DNA of 64,000 nucleotides. Origin: Verrucomicrobiota bacterium (GTDB lineage: Bacteria > Verrucomicrobiota > Kiritimatiellia > SS1-B-03-39 > UBA6053). The notes below the pieces were generated by a model that saw only the letters and a list, made by a program, of their open reading frames with translations, did no database searches and was not told the origin of the DNA. Positions 23,954-62,325 of this stretch are shown here, in pieces (position 1 is the stretch's first letter; the number at the start of each line of letters is the position of its first letter). Location: contig JAFIGD010000007.1 in the NCBI GenBank assembly GCA_020831625.1, positions 62,001-126,000 of the forward strand, in the 5' to 3' direction. The translations under genes were made by a program, and so were the position numbers.

Positions 23954-24002
23954 TTTCCGAACTTCGGAAAATGCGGATTGATGTTTTCCGAGATTCGGAA
24001 AA
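23954..24002. repeat. Double-palindrome (REP-like) element, intergenic copy
   Basis: Two hairpin-forming palindromes fill the 69-bp gap between convergent cysI and the GT39 gene: TTTCCGAA-C-TTCGGAAA (23954-23970) and TTTTCCGA-GAT-TCGGAAAA (23984-24002). Their centres are 31 bp apart. The same pair with the same centre spacing is found inside the large gene at 60786-60833. Here it could also act as a bidirectional transcription terminator. Confidence 0.8.
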
Positions 24003-29378: not shown

Positions 29379-29819
29379 GTGCGGGGGCAGCCGTTACTGG
29401 AACTTCTGTTCGTGGGGGCGGTCGCGCTGGCTTTGTGGTTTCCCATGAGGGGTTTGACCCGGGCGCGGGTCTTTCCCATGTCTTCCGATCCCGTTTTGGC
29501 GGACGGGGCGGGAGATACGGTTCGCCGTCCGGTCTGGATTGACCTGCGGTTTTCCCATGCGCCGGAACGGTTTGAAGTGTTTCAGAATGGCATTTCACTG
29601 GGTGAGGGCGGGGGTGTTCGGCGCTGGGATGAGGATGCGGAGGTTTCGTTCGAGGGAGGGGTTGTGTCGATACGCATTGAGGGGGATTTCGCCGGGGACG
29701 TGGATTCCGCTTATTTGGAGGTGTCCATTGAGCCGGACCGCCTGCCGTCCCAGCGGCGGGGGATGTGGATCCGACGGGATTTTTCACATGTGATGGAGTT
29801 CCGATGGACGGAAAACTGA
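29379..29819 (+). CDS. Unknown membrane-anchored protein within the zinc operon
   Basis: This 146-residue protein starts with GTG at 29379, three bases after znuA. A hydrophobic N-terminus (about 8-22) would anchor it or act as a signal peptide. The rest is a small beta-rich domain (FEVFQNGISLGEG, VVSIRIEGDFAGD, SAYLEVSIEPDRLP) facing the periplasm. It overlaps znuC by 16 bases. I know no family with this sequence. The position between the binding-protein and ATPase genes suggests an accessory part of the importer. It lacks His-rich or Cys motifs. Confidence 0.65.
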   Translation: MRGQPLLELLFVGAVALALWFPMRGLTRARVFPMSSDPVLADGAGDTVRRPVWIDLRFSHAPERFEVFQNGISLGEGGGVRRWDEDAEVSFEGGVVSIRIEGDFAGDVDSAYLEVSIEPDRLPSQRRGMWIRRDFSHVMEFRWTEN

Positions 29820-30598
29820 CGTCCGATCTTTTCCGAATCACGGAACTGGGGGCTTCGCACGATCCGGAGCCGGGGCACTGCCTTGCGGTGGAGGGACTGC
29901 ATGTGCATTACGGCGCGATTTGCGCGCTGGCGGATGTGTCGTTTTCAATCGGTTGCGGGCATTGCGTGGGGTTGCTGGGCCAGAACGGCGCGGGGAAGAG
30001 CACGCTGTTGAAGAGTATTGCCGGATTGCACACGCGGTTCAGCGGTTCGCTGACGTGGCGGGGACTTCCGCTGGCGTCGGTTCGACGTGAAATCGCCTAT
30101 TTGCCGCAGAAGGATCAGGTGGATCCGTTTTTTCCTCTGACGGTGCGCGGGCTGGTGGAGATGGGGCGGTATCCGCATTTGGGTGAGCGGGGGGGCTGGA
30201 GGAAACTGGACACGGAGGTGGTGGACACGGCGATTGAAACCCTGAAGCTGGGTGATTTGCAGAAGCGCCGGCTGTTTCAATTGAGCGGAGGTCAGTTGCA
30301 GAGGACGCATATCGCCCGGGCCCTGGCGCAGGAGGCGCATGTGTTGCTGCTGGACGAGCCTTTCGCGGGGCTGGATGAACCTTCTCAACGGATGCTGGGG
30401 GAGGTGCTGCGGGAACTGGCGGCCAACGGACGTCTGCTGATGGTGTGTCATCATGATTTGAAAGCGGTGCCGGAGCTGTTTGACACGGTGCTGCTGCTGA
30501 ACCGCAAGCTGGTGGGGTTCGGTCCGGTGACCGAGGCCTTCACCCCGGAGGCGCTGCGGGCCGCGTTTGATCATCCGCCGGAGAATGTTCATGTTTGA
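29804..30598 (+). CDS. znuC: ZnuC-like ABC transporter ATPase
   Basis: This 264-residue ATPase has the Walker A GQNGAGKST (59-67), the Q-loop in YLPQKDQVD, the signature LSGGQLQRTHIARAL, and Walker B LLLDEPFAGLD followed by the switch His in MVCHHDLKAV. It energises uptake through ZnuB. The start is the ATG at 29804; in-frame codons upstream lie inside the previous gene. The first 27 residues precede the core fold and are longer than usual. Its stop overlaps the znuB start. Confidence 0.92.
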   Translation: MDGKLTSDLFRITELGASHDPEPGHCLAVEGLHVHYGAICALADVSFSIGCGHCVGLLGQNGAGKSTLLKSIAGLHTRFSGSLTWRGLPLASVRREIAYLPQKDQVDPFFPLTVRGLVEMGRYPHLGERGGWRKLDTEVVDTAIETLKLGDLQKRRLFQLSGGQLQRTHIARALAQEAHVLLLDEPFAGLDEPSQRMLGEVLRELAANGRLLMVCHHDLKAVPELFDTVLLLNRKLVGFGPVTEAFTPEALRAAFDHPPENVHV

Positions 30599-54347: not shown

Positions 54348-56914
54348 GTGTGATCTGGACTGGAATTTGGCCCTTTTGGCTGGTGCTTCCCCTGGGACTG
54401 CTGCTGGTGCTTTCCCAGGTTTGGCTCTACCGCCGTCAGCGGGTCGCGAAACCCTGGAACGTGGTGCTGCCGATGCTCCGCAGTCTGGCGCTTATCCTGC
54501 TGGTGCTGGCCCTGCTTCAGCCAGTGCTGGCCCGCTTCTCCCGTCAAATCCTCCGCGGCGAAGTGCTGGTGCTGGTGGACGACAGCGGGTCCATGGGCGT
54601 GGCCGACCGCTACGAACCCGCCCGCGCCATCCGCATCGCCTCCCGTCTGGAGCTGTTTCCCGCGATTCTGCGGGCCGTCCTGCAGGCGGACGAGGCGGCC
54701 TGGAATCGCATCCTCGAACCTCTCGATAAAGAGGAGCCAACCGAAAACGACCTTCAGCGCGCGTCCGAACGGCTGGAGCGTTGGCTGAGCGACACCCGGA
54801 CCCGTCTGGACCGTCATGCCTATCTTCGCGGCGAAGGGCCGCCGGGCTGGACGGAATGGGTGGCTGCCGTCCGGCAAAACGCCGCGGATGCCGGGGCCCT
54901 GAACGCCCTGCGAAAGGATTTCCCCGCCCTGCAGGAAGCCGCCGACACCGCGCTCGCCGAGGCCGGCATCCCCGAAGTGGACGCGGCCCTGGAAAAACTT
55001 GGCGACATGACCCGGCTGGATCTGGTGACCGCCCTTTGGGATCGGGAACTCTTCGGAATGCTTGATGCCAAAGGCGAGGTCAAGGTCTTCGGACTCGATT
55101 CCGGCGAACAGCCCTTCCCCGAGCCCGACCTCGGCGGACTCACGGGCGGTCACGCCACCTCGCCCCTGGGCGAGGCCCTGCGCGATGCGGTGCGCGGACG
55201 CGGGGACGCTCCCCTCACCGGGGTGGTGCTGATTTCCGATGGCAACATCAACGCCGGACTTACCCTGACCCAGTTCGTGGAGACGCTGGAGGGCCGTAAT
55301 CTGCCCTTCGTCGCCCTCGGCGTGGGCGAGGAGAAACCGGCGGAGGATCTGGTGCTGGAACAGGTCATTGCCCCCGAGACCGTGTTTGTGAAAGACCGGG
55401 TGGCCATGCGCGTCCTGCTCTCGCGCCACGGTTACACCGACGTGCCCGTGGAACTGCGGGTGAGCCACGGCGGGGAGACCCTGCACACGCAAATCCTCCC
55501 CCCCGGGGAAGAGGAGCGACTCTGGGTGGATGTCGGTTTTGTGGAAACGGAAACCGGCGAGCGGGAATACCGCGTGGAGCTGGAGCACATGGAGGACGAG
55601 TGGCTCGAACGCAACAACCACCGCGACGTGCGGGTCAACGTGCTGGAGGATGCCATCCGCGTCCTGCTGGTCGACGCCTGGCCGCGCTGGGAAACCCGCT
55701 ATCTCGACATGATGCTGCAGCGCGATCCGCGGGTGGAGGCTCACACGATTTTCTACGGCTCCAGCGAAAGCGGCACCCTGCGCACCGGACCCGACCGCTA
55801 TCCCGAAACCCGCGAGGATCTCTTCGGCTACGAAGTGGTCATTCTCGGCGACGTCGATCCCGCCCAGTTCTCGCGGGGTCAGTTGGAGGATCTCCGCGAT
55901 TTCGTCGAGGAGCGCGGCGGCACCCTGATCTGGATCGCCGGCACCCAGCACATGCCTCTGTCCTTTCAGCACACCCTCCTCTGGTCGCTCGCACCCTTCC
56001 GCCTCAGCCCCGCGGCCAGCGAACCCGGGCAGGAATTTCCCGTCTTCCGCCTGCAGCTCACCGACACCGGCAAGCACGATCCCATGAGCCGCATCTCCAA
56101 CGCCGACGAGGTCAGCCGCCGCCTCTGGGAGGAGCTGCCCCCGCTGCCGTGGGTGAAACAGGGCCTCACCGCCCTGCCCATGGCCGACCGCACCGCGGAA
56201 ACCGTGGAGGGCGAAGTCCCCGTGCTCATCAAATCCCACCGCGGCCTCGGACGGCTGGTGTACATCGGGTCCGATTCCTTCTGGCGCTGGCGCGACCGCG
56301 CCCGCTGGACCTATCACCAGCGGCTCTGGGGACAGATCATCCTCTGGTCGGTGCTGGACCGCACCGGCGGTTCCGATCCGCATGTGAAGCTCATGACCGA
56401 CCGCCTGCACTACGCAACCGGCGAGTCCGTCACCCTCCGCGCCCGCCTGCTGGACGCCAACGGGCGGCCGCTGTCCCGCGCGGACGCCAGTGTGGAAATC
56501 TACGACGAACGCGGCGAACAGGTCCGCAAACTGACCCTGCGCGAACTTTCCGGGGAGGGCGGCGCCTACGAGGCGTCCGTGGACGGACTGCCGGAGGGAC
56601 GCTACACCGTGCGCCCCGTCGTCTTTGAACTGCGCAATGAAAACGTGCAGGCGGAAATCAATTTCCGCATCGGCGATCTGCCCACCAACGAATATGTGCG
56701 CCTCGCCTACGATGCCGCCGCCCTGCGCGGGGCCACTCCCCATGTGGGCCGGGTCTGGGATCCCGAAACCGCGCTGACACCCCTGGAGCCCCAGACCCAC
56801 GAGATCACCCGCCGCGAAGACCTTGAACTTTGGAACCATCCGCTCTTCCTCGCCCTGGCCGTTGGCCTGCTGAGCGCCGAATGGTGGAACCGACGCAGGA
56901 AACACCTCCCATGA
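54344..56914 (+). CDS. vWA - amidotransferase-like membrane protein
   Basis: This 856-residue protein has two N-terminal helices (about 9-29 and 46-64), then a vWA domain with Asp79, Ser81 and Ser83 (LVDDSGSMG). The vWA fold is interrupted by a roughly 180-residue helical insert before VVLISDGNINAG. A beta-sandwich, a class-I-glutamine-amidotransferase-like domain (about 437-560, IRVLLVDAWPRWETRYLDMM and EVVILGDVD) and a second sandwich follow, then a C-terminal helix. No catalytic Cys is evident in the amidotransferase-like fold. I start at the ATG at 54344 (ATGA overlap); the open frame upstream lies inside the previous gene. Confidence 0.87.
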   Translation: MSVIWTGIWPFWLVLPLGLLLVLSQVWLYRRQRVAKPWNVVLPMLRSLALILLVLALLQPVLARFSRQILRGEVLVLVDDSGSMGVADRYEPARAIRIASRLELFPAILRAVLQADEAAWNRILEPLDKEEPTENDLQRASERLERWLSDTRTRLDRHAYLRGEGPPGWTEWVAAVRQNAADAGALNALRKDFPALQEAADTALAEAGIPEVDAALEKLGDMTRLDLVTALWDRELFGMLDAKGEVKVFGLDSGEQPFPEPDLGGLTGGHATSPLGEALRDAVRGRGDAPLTGVVLISDGNINAGLTLTQFVETLEGRNLPFVALGVGEEKPAEDLVLEQVIAPETVFVKDRVAMRVLLSRHGYTDVPVELRVSHGGETLHTQILPPGEEERLWVDVGFVETETGEREYRVELEHMEDEWLERNNHRDVRVNVLEDAIRVLLVDAWPRWETRYLDMMLQRDPRVEAHTIFYGSSESGTLRTGPDRYPETREDLFGYEVVILGDVDPAQFSRGQLEDLRDFVEERGGTLIWIAGTQHMPLSFQHTLLWSLAPFRLSPAASEPGQEFPVFRLQLTDTGKHDPMSRISNADEVSRRLWEELPPLPWVKQGLTALPMADRTAETVEGEVPVLIKSHRGLGRLVYIGSDSFWRWRDRARWTYHQRLWGQIILWSVLDRTGGSDPHVKLMTDRLHYATGESVTLRARLLDANGRPLSRADASVEIYDERGEQVRKLTLRELSGEGGAYEASVDGLPEGRYTVRPVVFELRNENVQAEINFRIGDLPTNEYVRLAYDAAALRGATPHVGRVWDPETALTPLEPQTHEITRREDLELWNHPLFLALAVGLLSAEWWNRRRKHLP

Positions 56915-59900
56915 ACACCCCGAACCTTGATCCGGCCCGCGACGACACCGCAGCCCTTCTGCATGAGGGCCTGAACCGCTTTGAAGAAAAATGGAAGCAG
57001 CAGCAGCGCCGCCTGGGCGCGGGCCGTTTCCTGCTGGCGGCGGTGGTGCTGCTGCTCCTGGCCGCAGGTGTGGACCTGGTGATGACCCCGGAAGGTGCCG
57101 CCCGCGCCGGACTGTCCCTGCTGTTTTATGCGTCCCTTGCCGCCGCGGCCTGGTTCCTCTGGTGGCGTCCGGTGCTGCGCCCGCTTTCCGCCGAAAAAAT
57201 CGCCTGGATGATCGAGGACACCCACACGGAACTCAACGAAAAACTCATCAGCGCGGTGGAGTTGGAAAAGGAGCGCGAGGGCACCGTGTCCCGGGCCATG
57301 ATTTTGCAGACCATCGCCGACACCGAAGTGGATCTCGGTCGCGTGGACCCGGAGCGCGATCTCGCCCCGCCCCGCTGGCTGAAACTCCTGCCCGCCGGGA
57401 TAGGGGTTCTGATGCTGATCCTGATGCTGGTGCCGGGCCTGTATCTGCCCCTGCGCATCAAACGCATCATGCTGCCCACCGCCGCCGACGCGGCGGTGAG
57501 CACCTTCGCCCTGCGCTGGGTCGAGGCCCCGCAAGGCCGCGTGCCCGAAAACACAACGCTCCGGGTGACCGTCGAACGCACGCGGGACACCGGGGAGCAG
57601 GTGGTGCTGGAGATACAGGGCGAGCAGAGCCGCCGTCTGTCCATGCGCTGGAACGAGGCGGATGCTGTTTTCGAGGGGGAATTCACGGTGCCCAACCACC
57701 CGGTGTGGGTCTACGCACGTTCGGGCGGCGCCAGCACCCGCCGCGTTCAGGTGGATCCCATGCTGCGTCCCTGGATTGAAAACCTGACCCTGGAAATCCA
57801 TCCGCCGGCCTACACCGGTGCCCGCGTGCGGGTGCTGGACAGCTGGCCGCGCGAGTTGGAGGTGGTGGAGGGCTCCCGCATCCACCTCCAGGTGACCGGC
57901 AACGAGCCGCTGTCACGCGCCGCCGTGCGGTCCGAACAGGAGACGGTCGAGATTCCCCTGACCTCGGACGTCATCGCCAAGGGCGACTGGATGCCCGCAC
58001 ACAGCGGCGAATACACCCTGTGGGTTCGGGACCGGGAGGAGCTGGAGCCCCTGGATTCACCGCGGTTGCAATTGCGAGTGCTTCCCGATCTGCCACCCAC
58101 CGTCTCCTGGGTCGCCCCGGAAAGCGACCTGCTGTTGCGCGAGGGCGACAGCCTGCCGCTGGTCTGGACCGCGTCGGATGATTTCGGGGTGACGGAAAGC
58201 CGCGTGGCAATCCGCAAAAACCGCGACGCGCCGGTGGAGATTGTGGTCACGCCCGCGAACGGAAGATACACCTATGATTTATCGGACTGGTCGCTGGGCG
58301 GCGGCGATGAGCTTCGGGTGCAGGTCTTCGCCAAAGATGCCCTGGGACAAGAGGGGGAATCCCCGCTCCGCACCCTCAGCGTGGCCGGCGGACTGGATCA
58401 CGCCGAAGCACAGCAGTATCTGCGTGATTTGACCGCGCTCCGGGTTCACATGAATCGGAGCGGTCCGCCGCTGGAGGCCCTGCAACAGTCCCGCGCGGGC
58501 ATCTTCGAGGCGGTGGTCTACGAAACCCCCAGCGCCTTGGAGAACGTTGAATTCCAGCGGGTGCGCTGGCAAATCAGCAAATCCCAACTCGACAGCAACC
58601 TCACTGAAGCCCGCGGACGTGCGGACGCCTTGCGTCAGCGCGCCTTTTTCTCCGCCGGCGCGACGGCGCTGGAGCTGCTGGCCCGCTATACGGAACAGGA
58701 GCGGGTGCGACTTCATACGGTGGACCCCGCCACGTTGCAGACCGGACCCGGCGTGGCCGGGGTCTACGAACTGGGTCTGCCCCTGCTGACGGAACTGCAA
58801 CGGCTGGCGGACATTGCCCTGCCGGCCCTGCAGGCGGCCCGGCTCGAAACGATGGTGGCACTGGTGGCCCCGCGCCAGGACGCAGCCTCCCGCCGCCTGC
58901 TTGAGGATCTGCGTCACCGCACCATGGTGTTTGCGAACCGTCACGCGCCCGAAAGTGTGACCGCGCTGGAGTCGCTTGATCTGCGGCCGGACTCCGGCAA
59001 ACCCGCCCGCGGCCTGCGCCGCTGGATGTGGCTGGAGCGCACCACCTACACCTACGATCCGGGAACGGCCGGGGCGCGCATGGACACGGAAAGCCATATC
59101 AACCATCCGAACCTGCCCAGCATGAACCTGGGGGGAAACCAACTGGTGTCCATCCTCTGGCTGGGACGGGTGCGCGCCGAACGCGGGGGAACCTACCGCT
59201 TTGATTTGGAGTCCGACGACGGATCGCGTCTCTATGTGGGCGATCAGTTGGTGGTGCGGAACGACGGAAATCACGCCATGCAGCGGCGGGAGGGGCAGAT
59301 CGAATTGCCCCCCGGCCTGCATCCTATCCGCATCGTGTACTTCAATTCCGGGGGCGTTGGCGGCATCATCTTCCGCTGGCAGCCACCGGGCCGAAACGAA
59401 TGGGAGGTGGTTCCGGCGGGCGTTCTCTATGAACCGGGCAACGTTGGCGCGATGAGCTTTCATGCCATGATCAGCGGCCTGAGCGCACGCCTGGAGCGGG
59501 AGGCCGGAAACCTGCGGGAACTGGAGCGCTGGATGGCCCGCATCCGGGAGCGGCTGGAATCGCCCGAAGCGCTTCTGGCCGCGGTCCGTGACCCCGCGGA
59601 GATCGCCGCCCTGGCCGAAGCCCTCCGACTCCGGGCCGAGGCGGAGGAAAATGCGTCCCTCGCCCGCCTCGCCGACGAATTGGCCCGGGCCGGACTCCGC
59701 GAAGATGCCGAAGCGGTGGAGCGCATCCTGCAGGCCGTGGCCTCCCTCGCCCGGGACCGCGAACAGGAGGCCTGGGAAACCCGCCTCCGCGAAGAGACGC
59801 AGCGGGCCATGGACCTGGTGCGGGGTCTCGAACATCTTTCCTCCCTGGAAGAGGAGGCCGAACGCCGCGCCCAACTGCGCGAGGAGGCGGAACGCCTGCG

Positions 59901-62325
59901 GGCCCTCGCCAACGCGCAGCCCGACACCGGCACCGACCGCCAGCACGAGCGCGATCTCCGCGACGCGGCCCGGGACCTTCAGCGCATGGCCGAGGAAATG
60001 GCGAAACTGGATGCCGACCCTGCCGAACGCATCGCGGCCATGGAACGCCATCAGGAAAATCTGGAAACCCGGATGGACCGCGCCGAGGCCGCCTCCAAAC
60101 AGGAGCTGGCCCAGACGGAGGACAGGCTGCGCGCGGCCCTGCCCGCCGCCTCCGAAGAGATCGCGTCCAGTGCCGAACGCCTGGCCGAAGCGGAGGACGC
60201 GATGGCCGCCCTCGCGCAGGAGCGGGAACGTCTGGAGTCGGTGATTCAGGCCCTGCGTGAACCCCTGGATCTGCGAAGGGACGCGGAGCAGCGAATTTCC
60301 CCCGAGGATGTGCGCGATCAGCGGCTCGCCGAAGTGCTGGAACGTCAGCTCGCCTCGGAGGAGCCCGCCGCTGTTCAGGCGGCGTTGGAAGCGGCGCAGC
60401 CTCTGGTGGCCGCGCAGGAGCAGGCCCGCCGTGAAGCCCTGACGCAGGGCGAGGAAGCCGCGCTGTCGCAGGCAATTCGCGAGGCGACGGACCCCGTGCT
60501 TTCGCCGTCCGAAGCCGAGGCCTTCGACCGCATGGATCGTCTCGCCGCCGCCCGCGAACAGGTGGAGCGTCTCGCCCGCGAGGCGGAGGCGCTTGGCAAT
60601 CAGCCCGTGCCCGAACGTCTGGCGGATGAAGTGGCCCGCGCCCAGGTCGCCCTGGCGGACCCTGCCGCCCCCCAGCCGGAATCTCCCCCGCGCACCCGTG
60701 CCGAACAGGCGCAACTGGAGGCGGCCCATGATCGCATGCGGGCCCTGGAGAATCCGCTCGCCCGCGCCCGACTGCAGGAGGAGGATTCCGAAGTTCGGAA
60801 AAATATGGAACAGGCTTTCCGAGAGTCGGAAAGACTCCAGAACGAGCTGGCGAAGATGGCCACACCGGAAAGTGCGCGTCTGCGGGAGATGGCGGATGCA
60901 ATGGAGCGTCAAATGCGCGCCGAGGATGTCCGTGGCGCCGAGGAAACGCTGGCGGCCATGCAGCGTCAGGTGGACGAGTGGGCCGGAGAGAACCCGGTGG
61001 CGCCGCGCTTGGCGGAGCAGGCCGAAGCTGCCGCGCCCACGCCGGGAGATCCCGCGCAACAAATGGCGCGGGCGGCGGAGGCGCTGGAAAGGGCTGCGGC
61101 CTTTGAGGAGGCCGTCCCGCCCTCGCTGGCTTCGGCACAACAGCAAGCCGAGCAAGGTGATTTTGGTCAGGCCGCGCGCGAACTGGCCGCAGCGGGAGTG
61201 GAGCCGGAGCTGGCCGAGCAAGCCCGTGCCCTGGATGCGGACATGCGGCAGCTCCAGCAGGAAGCCCAGCGCGCCGCCGTGCAGGATGAACTCGACCGCC
61301 GCGAGCGGGATGGGCTTCAGCGTCTGGCCAACGCCCTGGCGGATCGCAATCTGCAGGAGGCGGAGCGACAGGCCACCTGGGCCAGGGACGCGGGCGAAGC
61401 GGCCCGGGAGGAGTTGGCGCGTATTCGTGAAGAGTCGCAACAACTGGCCCAATCTCTCGCCGAGGCCCGGGAATCGACCGTCAATCCCCATGCTGAACCC
61501 GCCAGCGAACAGTTGGCTGCCGCTGCGGAAGCCCTAGCAGGCCTGCCGGAAAGCGGAGAAGCGCAGGCCCACGCCCAAGCCGCCCAGGCCCATGCCGAAC
61601 AGGAACAATGGCCGCAAGCCGCCGCCGAAGCCCAACAGGCCGCCCAAGCCGCAGAGACGGCGGGACCACCCGGCGAACCCGGTGCCCCCGGCGAACCCGG
61701 TCTGGCCGACGCTGGAGCCCCCGAACCCGGCGCTCCGGGTGAGCCCGGCGCGCCCGGCACTCCAGGTGCCCCCGGCAGCCCCAGCACCCCTGGCGCTTCA
61801 CCCGAAGCCGCTGCCGCTGCCGCCACCCCGTCGGATTTGTCCGGTTTGTCTGATTTGTCCGATTCCCCCTCTTCCTTCCCCACCCAAGCCGCCCAGGCCC
61901 AACTGGCCGCCGCAGAAGCCGCGCTGCGCCAAGGCGATACCCCGCAGGGTGCCCAGGCCCTGCAGGCGGCCGCGCAATCGCTGGCCCAGGCACAGGCGGA
62001 AGCCGCCGCCCCAGCCCCAGGCGCACCACCCGCGGCCGCAGCCTCCCAGCCCGGATCCCAGCCCGGCGCTGAACCGGGCGAGGGACAATCCGACGCCCCC
62101 TCCATGGCCGAAGGCGGCGCTGGAGGCGAGGGCGGCTCGCTGGCGGAATCCCAGGGCGGCGCCGACCCGGATCTTTGGCAGGGCCCCCAGGGCGGAAACT
62201 GGGAGGGCGCACGCTCGGACATGGACACCGGGGATCCCCGCCGGGCCGGTCAGCAGTATTCCCCCTATTACCGCCGCGCCATTCAACAATACATGCGCGA
62301 TCTGCAACAGGAGCAAAGTCCATGA
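56911..62325 (+). CDS. Giant DUF4175-like protein with PA14, coiled-coil and collagen-like regions
   Basis: This 1804-residue protein has three N-terminal membrane helices (about 38-55, 68-86, 150-175) around EDTHTELNEKLISAVELEK, reminiscent of DUF4175. Ig-like domains follow (to about 520), then a PA14-like domain (about 700-845, GTYRFDLESDDGSRLYVGD). Next comes a very long Ala/Glu/Arg-rich coiled coil (about 860-1585), a collagen-like Gly-x-y stretch (about 1585-1630), a Ser-Asp-Leu repeat (1641-1652) and a disordered Gly/Ala/Pro tail ending in a short helix. PA14 usually binds glycans. It looks like a long envelope-spanning structural partner of the vWA proteins. Its coiled coil contains an in-frame palindromic repeat element (60786-60833). 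Confidence 0.85.
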   Translation: MNTPNLDPARDDTAALLHEGLNRFEEKWKQQQRRLGAGRFLLAAVVLLLLAAGVDLVMTPEGAARAGLSLLFYASLAAAAWFLWWRPVLRPLSAEKIAWMIEDTHTELNEKLISAVELEKEREGTVSRAMILQTIADTEVDLGRVDPERDLAPPRWLKLLPAGIGVLMLILMLVPGLYLPLRIKRIMLPTAADAAVSTFALRWVEAPQGRVPENTTLRVTVERTRDTGEQVVLEIQGEQSRRLSMRWNEADAVFEGEFTVPNHPVWVYARSGGASTRRVQVDPMLRPWIENLTLEIHPPAYTGARVRVLDSWPRELEVVEGSRIHLQVTGNEPLSRAAVRSEQETVEIPLTSDVIAKGDWMPAHSGEYTLWVRDREELEPLDSPRLQLRVLPDLPPTVSWVAPESDLLLREGDSLPLVWTASDDFGVTESRVAIRKNRDAPVEIVVTPANGRYTYDLSDWSLGGGDELRVQVFAKDALGQEGESPLRTLSVAGGLDHAEAQQYLRDLTALRVHMNRSGPPLEALQQSRAGIFEAVVYETPSALENVEFQRVRWQISKSQLDSNLTEARGRADALRQRAFFSAGATALELLARYTEQERVRLHTVDPATLQTGPGVAGVYELGLPLLTELQRLADIALPALQAARLETMVALVAPRQDAASRRLLEDLRHRTMVFANRHAPESVTALESLDLRPDSGKPARGLRRWMWLERTTYTYDPGTAGARMDTESHINHPNLPSMNLGGNQLVSILWLGRVRAERGGTYRFDLESDDGSRLYVGDQLVVRNDGNHAMQRREGQIELPPGLHPIRIVYFNSGGVGGIIFRWQPPGRNEWEVVPAGVLYEPGNVGAMSFHAMISGLSARLEREAGNLRELERWMARIRERLESPEALLAAVRDPAEIAALAEALRLRAEAEENASLARLADELARAGLREDAEAVERILQAVASLARDREQEAWETRLREETQRAMDLVRGLEHLSSLEEEAERRAQLREEAERLRALANAQPDTGTDRQHERDLRDAARDLQRMAEEMAKLDADPAERIAAMERHQENLETRMDRAEAASKQELAQTEDRLRAALPAASEEIASSAERLAEAEDAMAALAQERERLESVIQALREPLDLRRDAEQRISPEDVRDQRLAEVLERQLASEEPAAVQAALEAAQPLVAAQEQARREALTQGEEAALSQAIREATDPVLSPSEAEAFDRMDRLAAAREQVERLAREAEALGNQPVPERLADEVARAQVALADPAAPQPESPPRTRAEQAQLEAAHDRMRALENPLARARLQEEDSEVRKNMEQAFRESERLQNELAKMATPESARLREMADAMERQMRAEDVRGAEETLAAMQRQVDEWAGENPVAPRLAEQAEAAAPTPGDPAQQMARAAEALERAAAFEEAVPPSLASAQQQAEQGDFGQAARELAAAGVEPELAEQARALDADMRQLQQEAQRAAVQDELDRRERDGLQRLANALADRNLQEAERQATWARDAGEAAREELARIREESQQLAQSLAEARESTVNPHAEPASEQLAAAAEALAGLPESGEAQAHAQAAQAHAEQEQWPQAAAEAQQAAQAAETAGPPGEPGAPGEPGLADAGAPEPGAPGEPGAPGTPGAPGSPSTPGASPEAAAAAATPSDLSGLSDLSDSPSSFPTQAAQAQLAAAEAALRQGDTPQGAQALQAAAQSLAQAQAEAAAPAPGAPPAAAASQPGSQPGAEPGEGQSDAPSMAEGGAGGEGGSLAESQGGADPDLWQGPQGGNWEGARSDMDTGDPRRAGQQYSPYYRRAIQQYMRDLQQEQSP
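60786..60833. repeat. Double-palindrome (REP-like) element, copy inside a coding region
   Basis: TTCCGAA-G-TTCGGAA (60786-60800) and CTTTCCGA-GAG-TCGGAAAG (60815-60833) lie in frame within the 1804-codon gene and encode roughly SEVRKNMEQAFRESERL. Their centres are 31 bp apart, exactly as in the intergenic copy at 23954-24002, while the bases between the palindromes differ. Confidence 0.75.
61831..61866. repeat. 9-bp repeat TCYGRTTTG, four units
   Basis: TCGGATTTG, TCCGGTTTG, TCTGATTTG and TCCGATTCC encode SDLSGLSDLSDS in the disordered tail of the 1804-codon protein. It is the reverse-strand counterpart of the three four-unit clusters at 16211-16489, and in both genes the phase is the one that gives Ser-Asp-Leu. 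Confidence 0.8.

Follow-up and report, generated by a model that had tools for sequence, protein, structure and literature searches.

Helically phased twin palindromes, evenly spaced along a chromosome of a Kiritimatiellota-type family, as candidate sites of a chromosome-organising protein

Few sequence-specific systems that mark positions over the whole chromosome are known, namely parS, matS and the sites of SlmA and Noc. Noc sites are dispersed palindromes that are read by chromosomal position, and SlmA sites are described in the same terms (PMC3116907). The matS site is an odd palindrome with a 3-nt centre (GTGAC-RNY-GTCAC), which occurs in many dispersed copies and acts by its position rather than through a gene (PMC3116907). 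Other dispersed palindromes belong to mobile repeats, of which the REPIN doublets of P. fluorescens have been reported to be randomly distributed in extragenic space (PMC3116915). The arrays of palindromes described here resemble the sites of the matS/MatP system, which defines the E. coli terminus macrodomain, in being 3-nt-centred and dispersed and in the position-dependent role proposed for them below. They differ in that matS consists of single sites, 23 in number, that are restricted to the Ter region, whereas the arrays are twin or longer, have a period of three helical turns, cover the whole chromosome without an ori/ter bias and have another sequence. SlmA sites are excluded from Ter and the arrays are not, while Noc differs in that no second ParB/Noc-type helix-turn-helix (HTH) protein is found in the array-bearing genomes of the family. 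The family's parS, TGTTCCACGTGGAACA, is likewise a palindrome with a TTCC-containing half-site, but it is present as a small cluster of copies (located at the origin in the complete chromosome G008), and the arrays differ from it in sequence, geometry and distribution. For Kiritimatiellota, a search of the literature turned up no description of such elements.

The stretch of DNA analysed here (the window, 64,000 nucleotides, C73:62001-126000) is part of a genome of 4.89 Mb in 111 contigs. Two pairs of palindromes in it had been noted in a sequence-only reading, and both are confirmed, each with a centre-to-centre distance of 31 bp. The first pair, TTTCCGAACTTCGGAAA at 23954–23970 and TTTCCGAGATTCGGAAA at 23985–24001 (cores 23955–23969 and 23986–24000), sits between convergent genes, as that reading had stated. 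The second pair, TTCCGAAGTTCGGAA at 60786–60800, which is an exact core, and TTTCCGAGAGTCGGAAA at 60816–60832 (exact core 60817–60831), lies within a large gene on the forward strand (56830–62325), whose product is 1831 residues long from the first possible start and consists of a PA14 domain followed by a coiled coil. A third, degenerate pair that had been missed is made up of TTCCGATGGACGGAA (29799–29813) and TTCCGAATCACGGAA (29831–29845), each with one mismatch, at a distance of 32 bp. In G008, which belongs to another genus, an array adjoins the orthologue of the ABC-transporter gene found next to this third pair. In all, the window contains 12 near-matches to the palindrome, compared to a mean of 1.9 and a maximum of 7 in shuffled sequence.

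The pairs were taken in the earlier reading for members of a dispersed family in which the arms are conserved and the spacers free, of which further copies were predicted, and this is borne out. The window's genome contains 269 exact TTCCGANNNTCGGAA sites (none with the reversed-pattern control) and 122 exact twin sites (control 0), and neither the loops nor the spacers of different sites are related. A logo of 53 palindromes from this genome and 151 from related ones gives the consensus TTTTCCGA-NNN-TCGGAAAA, which occurs twice with ~12 free bases in between. The site is symmetric and sharply edged, and little information is left in the flanks outside its T/A extension. Across 793 kb of the genome, the partners of perfect sites are found almost only at 31, 32, 62 and 93 bp. 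Array statistics cover 1.15 Mb out of the 4.89 Mb, in which 42 sites comprise 35 pairs, four triples, one quadruple and two singles, so that 40 of the 42 are arrays of two to four palindromes with a period of 30–32 bp (31 bp in 38 cases, 32 bp in six and 30 bp in two). With 10.5 bp per turn of the DNA helix, a period of 31–32 bp corresponds to about three turns, which suggests that adjacent proteins are lined up along the same face of double-stranded DNA. When 38 spacers of this genome are compared pairwise, they are no more alike than shuffled ones, the exceptions being a locus on C19 that is duplicated and possibly a further pair.

The arms of the palindromes are under strong constraint. In seven orthologous arrays, compared between the window's genome and relatives at roughly 70–85% DNA identity, the 12-base core differs at one of 168 positions, whereas differences are found at 11 of 56 outer T/A positions, 17 of 42 loop positions and 38 of 86 spacer positions. 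The difference between the core and the loops plus spacers (~43% divergence) has a Fisher P of 9e-23 in these seven arrays, which were chosen because they are recognised in both partners, so that the conservation of the arms is partly ascertained. Arrays within genes are also retained: one in an amine-oxidase gene is kept in the window's genome, G002 and G008 (two genera) with a spacing of 32 bp in each, and another in the IleRS gene is kept in the window's genome and UBA6056. In imperfect copies, compensatory changes that would preserve a hairpin, a trait of REP/REPIN elements, are found in one of 42 altered pairs, which indicates that sequence recognition, rather than hairpin folding, is maintained. 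It is very probable, though on indirect evidence, that a putative sequence-specific protein recognises the palindromes in double-stranded DNA.

Loops and outer bases differ from species to species. The loop is TCA or TGA at 84 of 110 sites in G002, while the window's genome prefers ACA, ACT and ACC, JAFIGC (a small count) prefers CGC, and UBA6056 carries AGC and ACT, with a 32-bp spacing in five of five pairs (also a small count). The G001 arrays listed have the outer bases C-TTCCGA...TCGGAA-G. As the spacers are not homogenised, copying of whole elements fails to explain the species-specific loops. A changing protein that reads all of the sites would leave loops and outer bases specific to a species.

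The arrangement of the arrays along the chromosome is most evident in G008, a single contig of 4,432,027 bp with a nearly complete list of 67 arrays. They are set ~66 kb apart, and the coefficient of variation (CV) of the gaps is 0.594 compared to 0.979 ± 0.112 (sd) for random placement (0 of 100,000 simulations, P < 1e-5). There is one gap under 12 kb where 11.0 are expected, and no gap is longer than 176 kb, compared to an expected maximum of 317 kb. When an 8.6-kb exclusion alone is modelled for G008, the CV is still higher (0.85, P = 0.0005). In the fragmented genome of the window, short-range repulsion alone is visible, with one gap under 5 kb (a gene duplicate) compared to 5.3 expected (P = 0.01), and the overall CV of the gaps is not significant (P = 0.29). 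Non-random chromosomal spacing, a trait of chromosome-organising site systems, is thereby present in G008 and weaker in the contigs of the window's genome, with the evidence for even spacing coming mainly from one complete chromosome. The origin of G008 is located at ~0.53 Mb, where the GC skew switches and three parS sites are found at 525,981–527,205. The density of arrays is independent of the distance to this origin (14, 18, 18 and 17 arrays per quartile).

In relation to genes, eight of the 42 arrays of the window's genome are within coding sequence, although this makes up 82% of the DNA according to a simple purpose-made gene caller. Between genes, arrays are over-represented in convergent gaps (25 of 79, compared to 53 of 416 in the background) and under-represented in divergent ones (8 of 79, compared to 106 of 416); these counts pool the window's genome and related genomes against the background of the former, which is not significant on its own. 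In many cases an array starts 10 bp or less from a stop codon, and some arrays are located 30–150 bp upstream of genes. The neighbouring genes have no common theme and comprise unrelated housekeeping, transport and catabolic functions.

Fairly even, mostly gene-end arrays that are held at orthologous places point to a chromosome-scale job and not to the control of particular genes. The best explanation, to which we assign a probability of roughly 0.6, is that the arrays are tandem, helically phased sites for a dedicated, putative dimeric DNA-binding protein with a chromosome-scale role. Each TTTTCCGA-NNN-TCGGAAAA palindrome would bind one dimer of this homodimeric protein, and two to four sites at 31–32 bp would bring adjacent dimers to one and the same side of the helix, where they could bind cooperatively. 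What is read in an array seems to be its position and not the gene beside it, and the role of the arrays is probably the organisation of the chromosome, for which anchoring, domain or loop organisation and segregation are candidate jobs. That they represent a novel chromosome-organising system of one Kiritimatiellota-type family, built of twin palindromes that are set fairly evenly over the entire chromosome and a reader whose fine specificity for loop and outer bases shifts together with its sites between species, appears to us to be an even bet. If true, genome-wide, evenly spaced and helically phased tandem sites would exist in a group in which nucleoid organisation is practically unstudied. 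The differing loops of close relatives would then provide a natural experiment on the joint change of a DNA-binding protein and its numerous sites. The definition of the site is sharp enough for the binder to be isolated in a simple pull-down.

Of the alternatives, the one closest to the earlier reading interprets the twin hairpins as REP/REPIN-like non-autonomous elements that are spread by a Y1 (RAYT-type) transposase and have in some cases ended up within genes. The arrays do share with REP, BIME and REPIN elements, which are associated with RAYT, a high copy number (hundreds of short palindromes), the organisation in doublets and a bias towards extragenic DNA and gene ends, and one clean 50-bp presence/absence difference is found between species. 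However, the GTAG/CGTC tag at the head of such elements is absent, the palindromes are symmetric in the logo, different arrays have no spacer in common, and the arms are conserved at orthologous places, also between genera, while all else diverges. The spacing in G008 is even and not random. Y1 genes, which the earlier reading had connected with the palindromes, do exist in the window's genome, but they are not associated with the arrays: none of the ten that were examined is flanked by arrays, and in G008 the median distance from a Y1 gene (16 genes) to the nearest array is 19.2 kb compared to 18.9 kb expected. Y1_Tnp proteins are encoded in 10 of 11 genomes of the family, and the remaining one, G006, has neither Y1_Tnp nor arrays; the distances nevertheless argue against an association with RAYT/Y1. 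With unrelated spacers, no tag and no linkage to Y1 genes, REP-type mobility is an unlikely explanation for the arrays.

The copy within the large PA14/coiled-coil gene bears on the same question, as the element at 60786 had been claimed to add about 16 codons in frame. Orthologues of the protein are present in G005 and G004 (37–38% identity), and in both alignments the 48-bp segment has a full-length counterpart. In G005, the same residues (SEGRK...RRSEE) occupy this point and are encoded by diverged DNA, with a decayed twin site, ATCCGAAGGTCGGAA...TTCCCGACGTTCGGAA, and with ESEGRKSLEKLSRRSEE as the counterpart of the window's DSEVRKNMEQAFRESER. For the coding copy, this is an outcome that the earlier reading itself had named as refuting its proposal. 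The G004 orthologue has a site-free coiled coil of unchanged length. The single alignment gap near the site is due to the window's protein being four residues short immediately before it. These alignments rule out an in-frame insertion at 60786. The coding copy resembles the Rickettsia palindromic elements (RPE) in that both are palindromic repeats within open reading frames, but RPEs are in-frame insertions and the coding site is not. An ordinary insertion of the REP or RPE type is not supported.

The twin sites could alternatively be operators of a global transcription regulator with a large regulon. The geometry of the palindrome and its helical phasing are typical of transcription-factor dimers, and the arrays located 30–150 bp upstream of genes would fit such a role. 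Most of the positional evidence runs counter to it: arrays are scarce at divergent promoters and enriched at gene ends, a fifth or so of the arrays (the eight of 42 given above) are within genes, the neighbouring genes are functionally unrelated, and the chromosomal spacing is even. An Xre-family regulator that has an array upstream of its own gene was considered as an autoregulated binder and rejected, because it is found in only 4 of 11 genomes of the family and is missing from most of those that bear arrays. Taken together, operators of a global regulator are a distinctly unlikely identity for the twin sites.

Each genome of the family encodes one protein with an HTH_ParB domain, and no second one was found. 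A second ParB-like protein emerges from a search with the ParB_N domain. It consists of a ParB N-terminal domain, a hydrophobic segment and an OmpA-type C-terminal domain, contains no HTH, and its gene is constantly followed by a cyclophilin gene. A second, Noc-like ParB can therefore be rejected as the binder. The ParB_N-TM-OmpA protein could instead be an envelope partner, the arrays being the chromosomal side of a tether between nucleoid and envelope. It is present in all ten array-bearing genomes of the family and absent from the array-free G006 and G011. On the other hand, a DNA-binding domain is absent from it, its co-occurrence with the arrays may go back to one event on a single branch of the family tree, G010 encodes the protein and yet has only 12 sites, and in nine of ten genomes the arrays are not near its gene. 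A tether of this composition is very unlikely. The least probable alternative is that the arrays act as tandem RNA hairpins that stabilise or terminate transcripts at mRNA 3' ends, as might be suggested by the many arrays that start so close to a stop codon and by the ability of the palindrome to form an RNA hairpin. Against it, A and not U is abundant on the 3' side of the stem, unlike in an intrinsic terminator, the arms do not covary, a strict distance of 31–32 bp across a free spacer would serve no purpose in RNA, arrays are also found upstream of and within genes, and an Rfam search of the window gave no match.

Among 289 genomes sampled evenly across the phylum, twin sites are found in six, all from one Kiritimatiellota-type family. 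Genomes of the same genus contain 135–364 single sites and those of other genera of the family 12–144, while G006, also of this family, contains two. A scan over 84,980 species returned at least 63 stretches, and among the matches listed all are from PVC, Verrucomicrobia or Kiritimatiellae metagenome assemblies, so that the sites may also occur more widely than in the family. The viral contigs searched contain no twin site, which speaks against a viral origin. In a family located elsewhere in the class (f18; G027 and G050), there are 9–12 single palindromes per genome, all but one within coding sequence and in different genes. They were considered as an ancestral regulon, but being nearly all in unrelated coding sequence they are apparently background.

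Within the family, the set of arrays is not fixed. At one intergenic locus (L024 compared to C49 of the window's genome), G002 has an array, whereas the window's genome is ~50 bp shorter and retains CCGGAA; an array is present there ~500 bp away, at the opposite end of the same gene. This clean difference may be a deletion or an insertion, the outgroups having other genes downstream at this locus, and it indicates that whole arrays can be gained or lost. At another locus, the number of palindromes is two in the window's genome and four in G002. Several lineage-specific arrays are located at synteny breaks, and the arrays turn over.

All ten array-bearing genomes of the family encode a protein that combines a ParB N-terminal domain, a hydrophobic segment, which is probably transmembrane, and an OmpA-type domain. 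It is found in the genome studied here (stretch L214:8706-9806, contig C85), in its relative G008 (L221:9470-10522) and in eight more family genomes, and is missing from G006 and G011, two genomes that lack arrays. The protein contains no DNA-binding domain, and the gene that comes next after its own encodes a cyclophilin. A possible role for this protein is that of a link between the nucleoid and the envelope.

The parS of the family genomes is TGTTCCACGTGGAACA, the copies of which are clustered, mostly in twos or threes. In G008 (a single contig), such a cluster (C1:525981-527205) marks the origin, while parB itself is found at 2.995 Mb, close to the putative terminus.

Arrays differ in presence at a YhcH-type (DUF386) gene. 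When L024:6600-7300 of the relative G002 is set against C49:9250-10000 of our genome, G002 has an array upstream of this gene, whereas our genome has none at that place and carries one downstream of the same gene instead. Two arrays on contig C19 of our genome (positions 430 and 3169) have similar spacers, an apparent duplication; their loops have changed, but their core arms are still identical.

Besides the twin palindromes, and unrelated to them, different species have in common some short repeats in intergenic DNA, 45-160 bp long (L065, L030, L048, L068, L072; contigs C2, C4 and C15 of our genome). Finally, a multicopy gene family (C15:4946, C15:46393, C49:93, C59:49368 and C28:9222 of our genome), whose products of ~400 residues match Y1_Tnp weakly and have G002 versions at 80-85% identity, is likely an insertion-sequence family.
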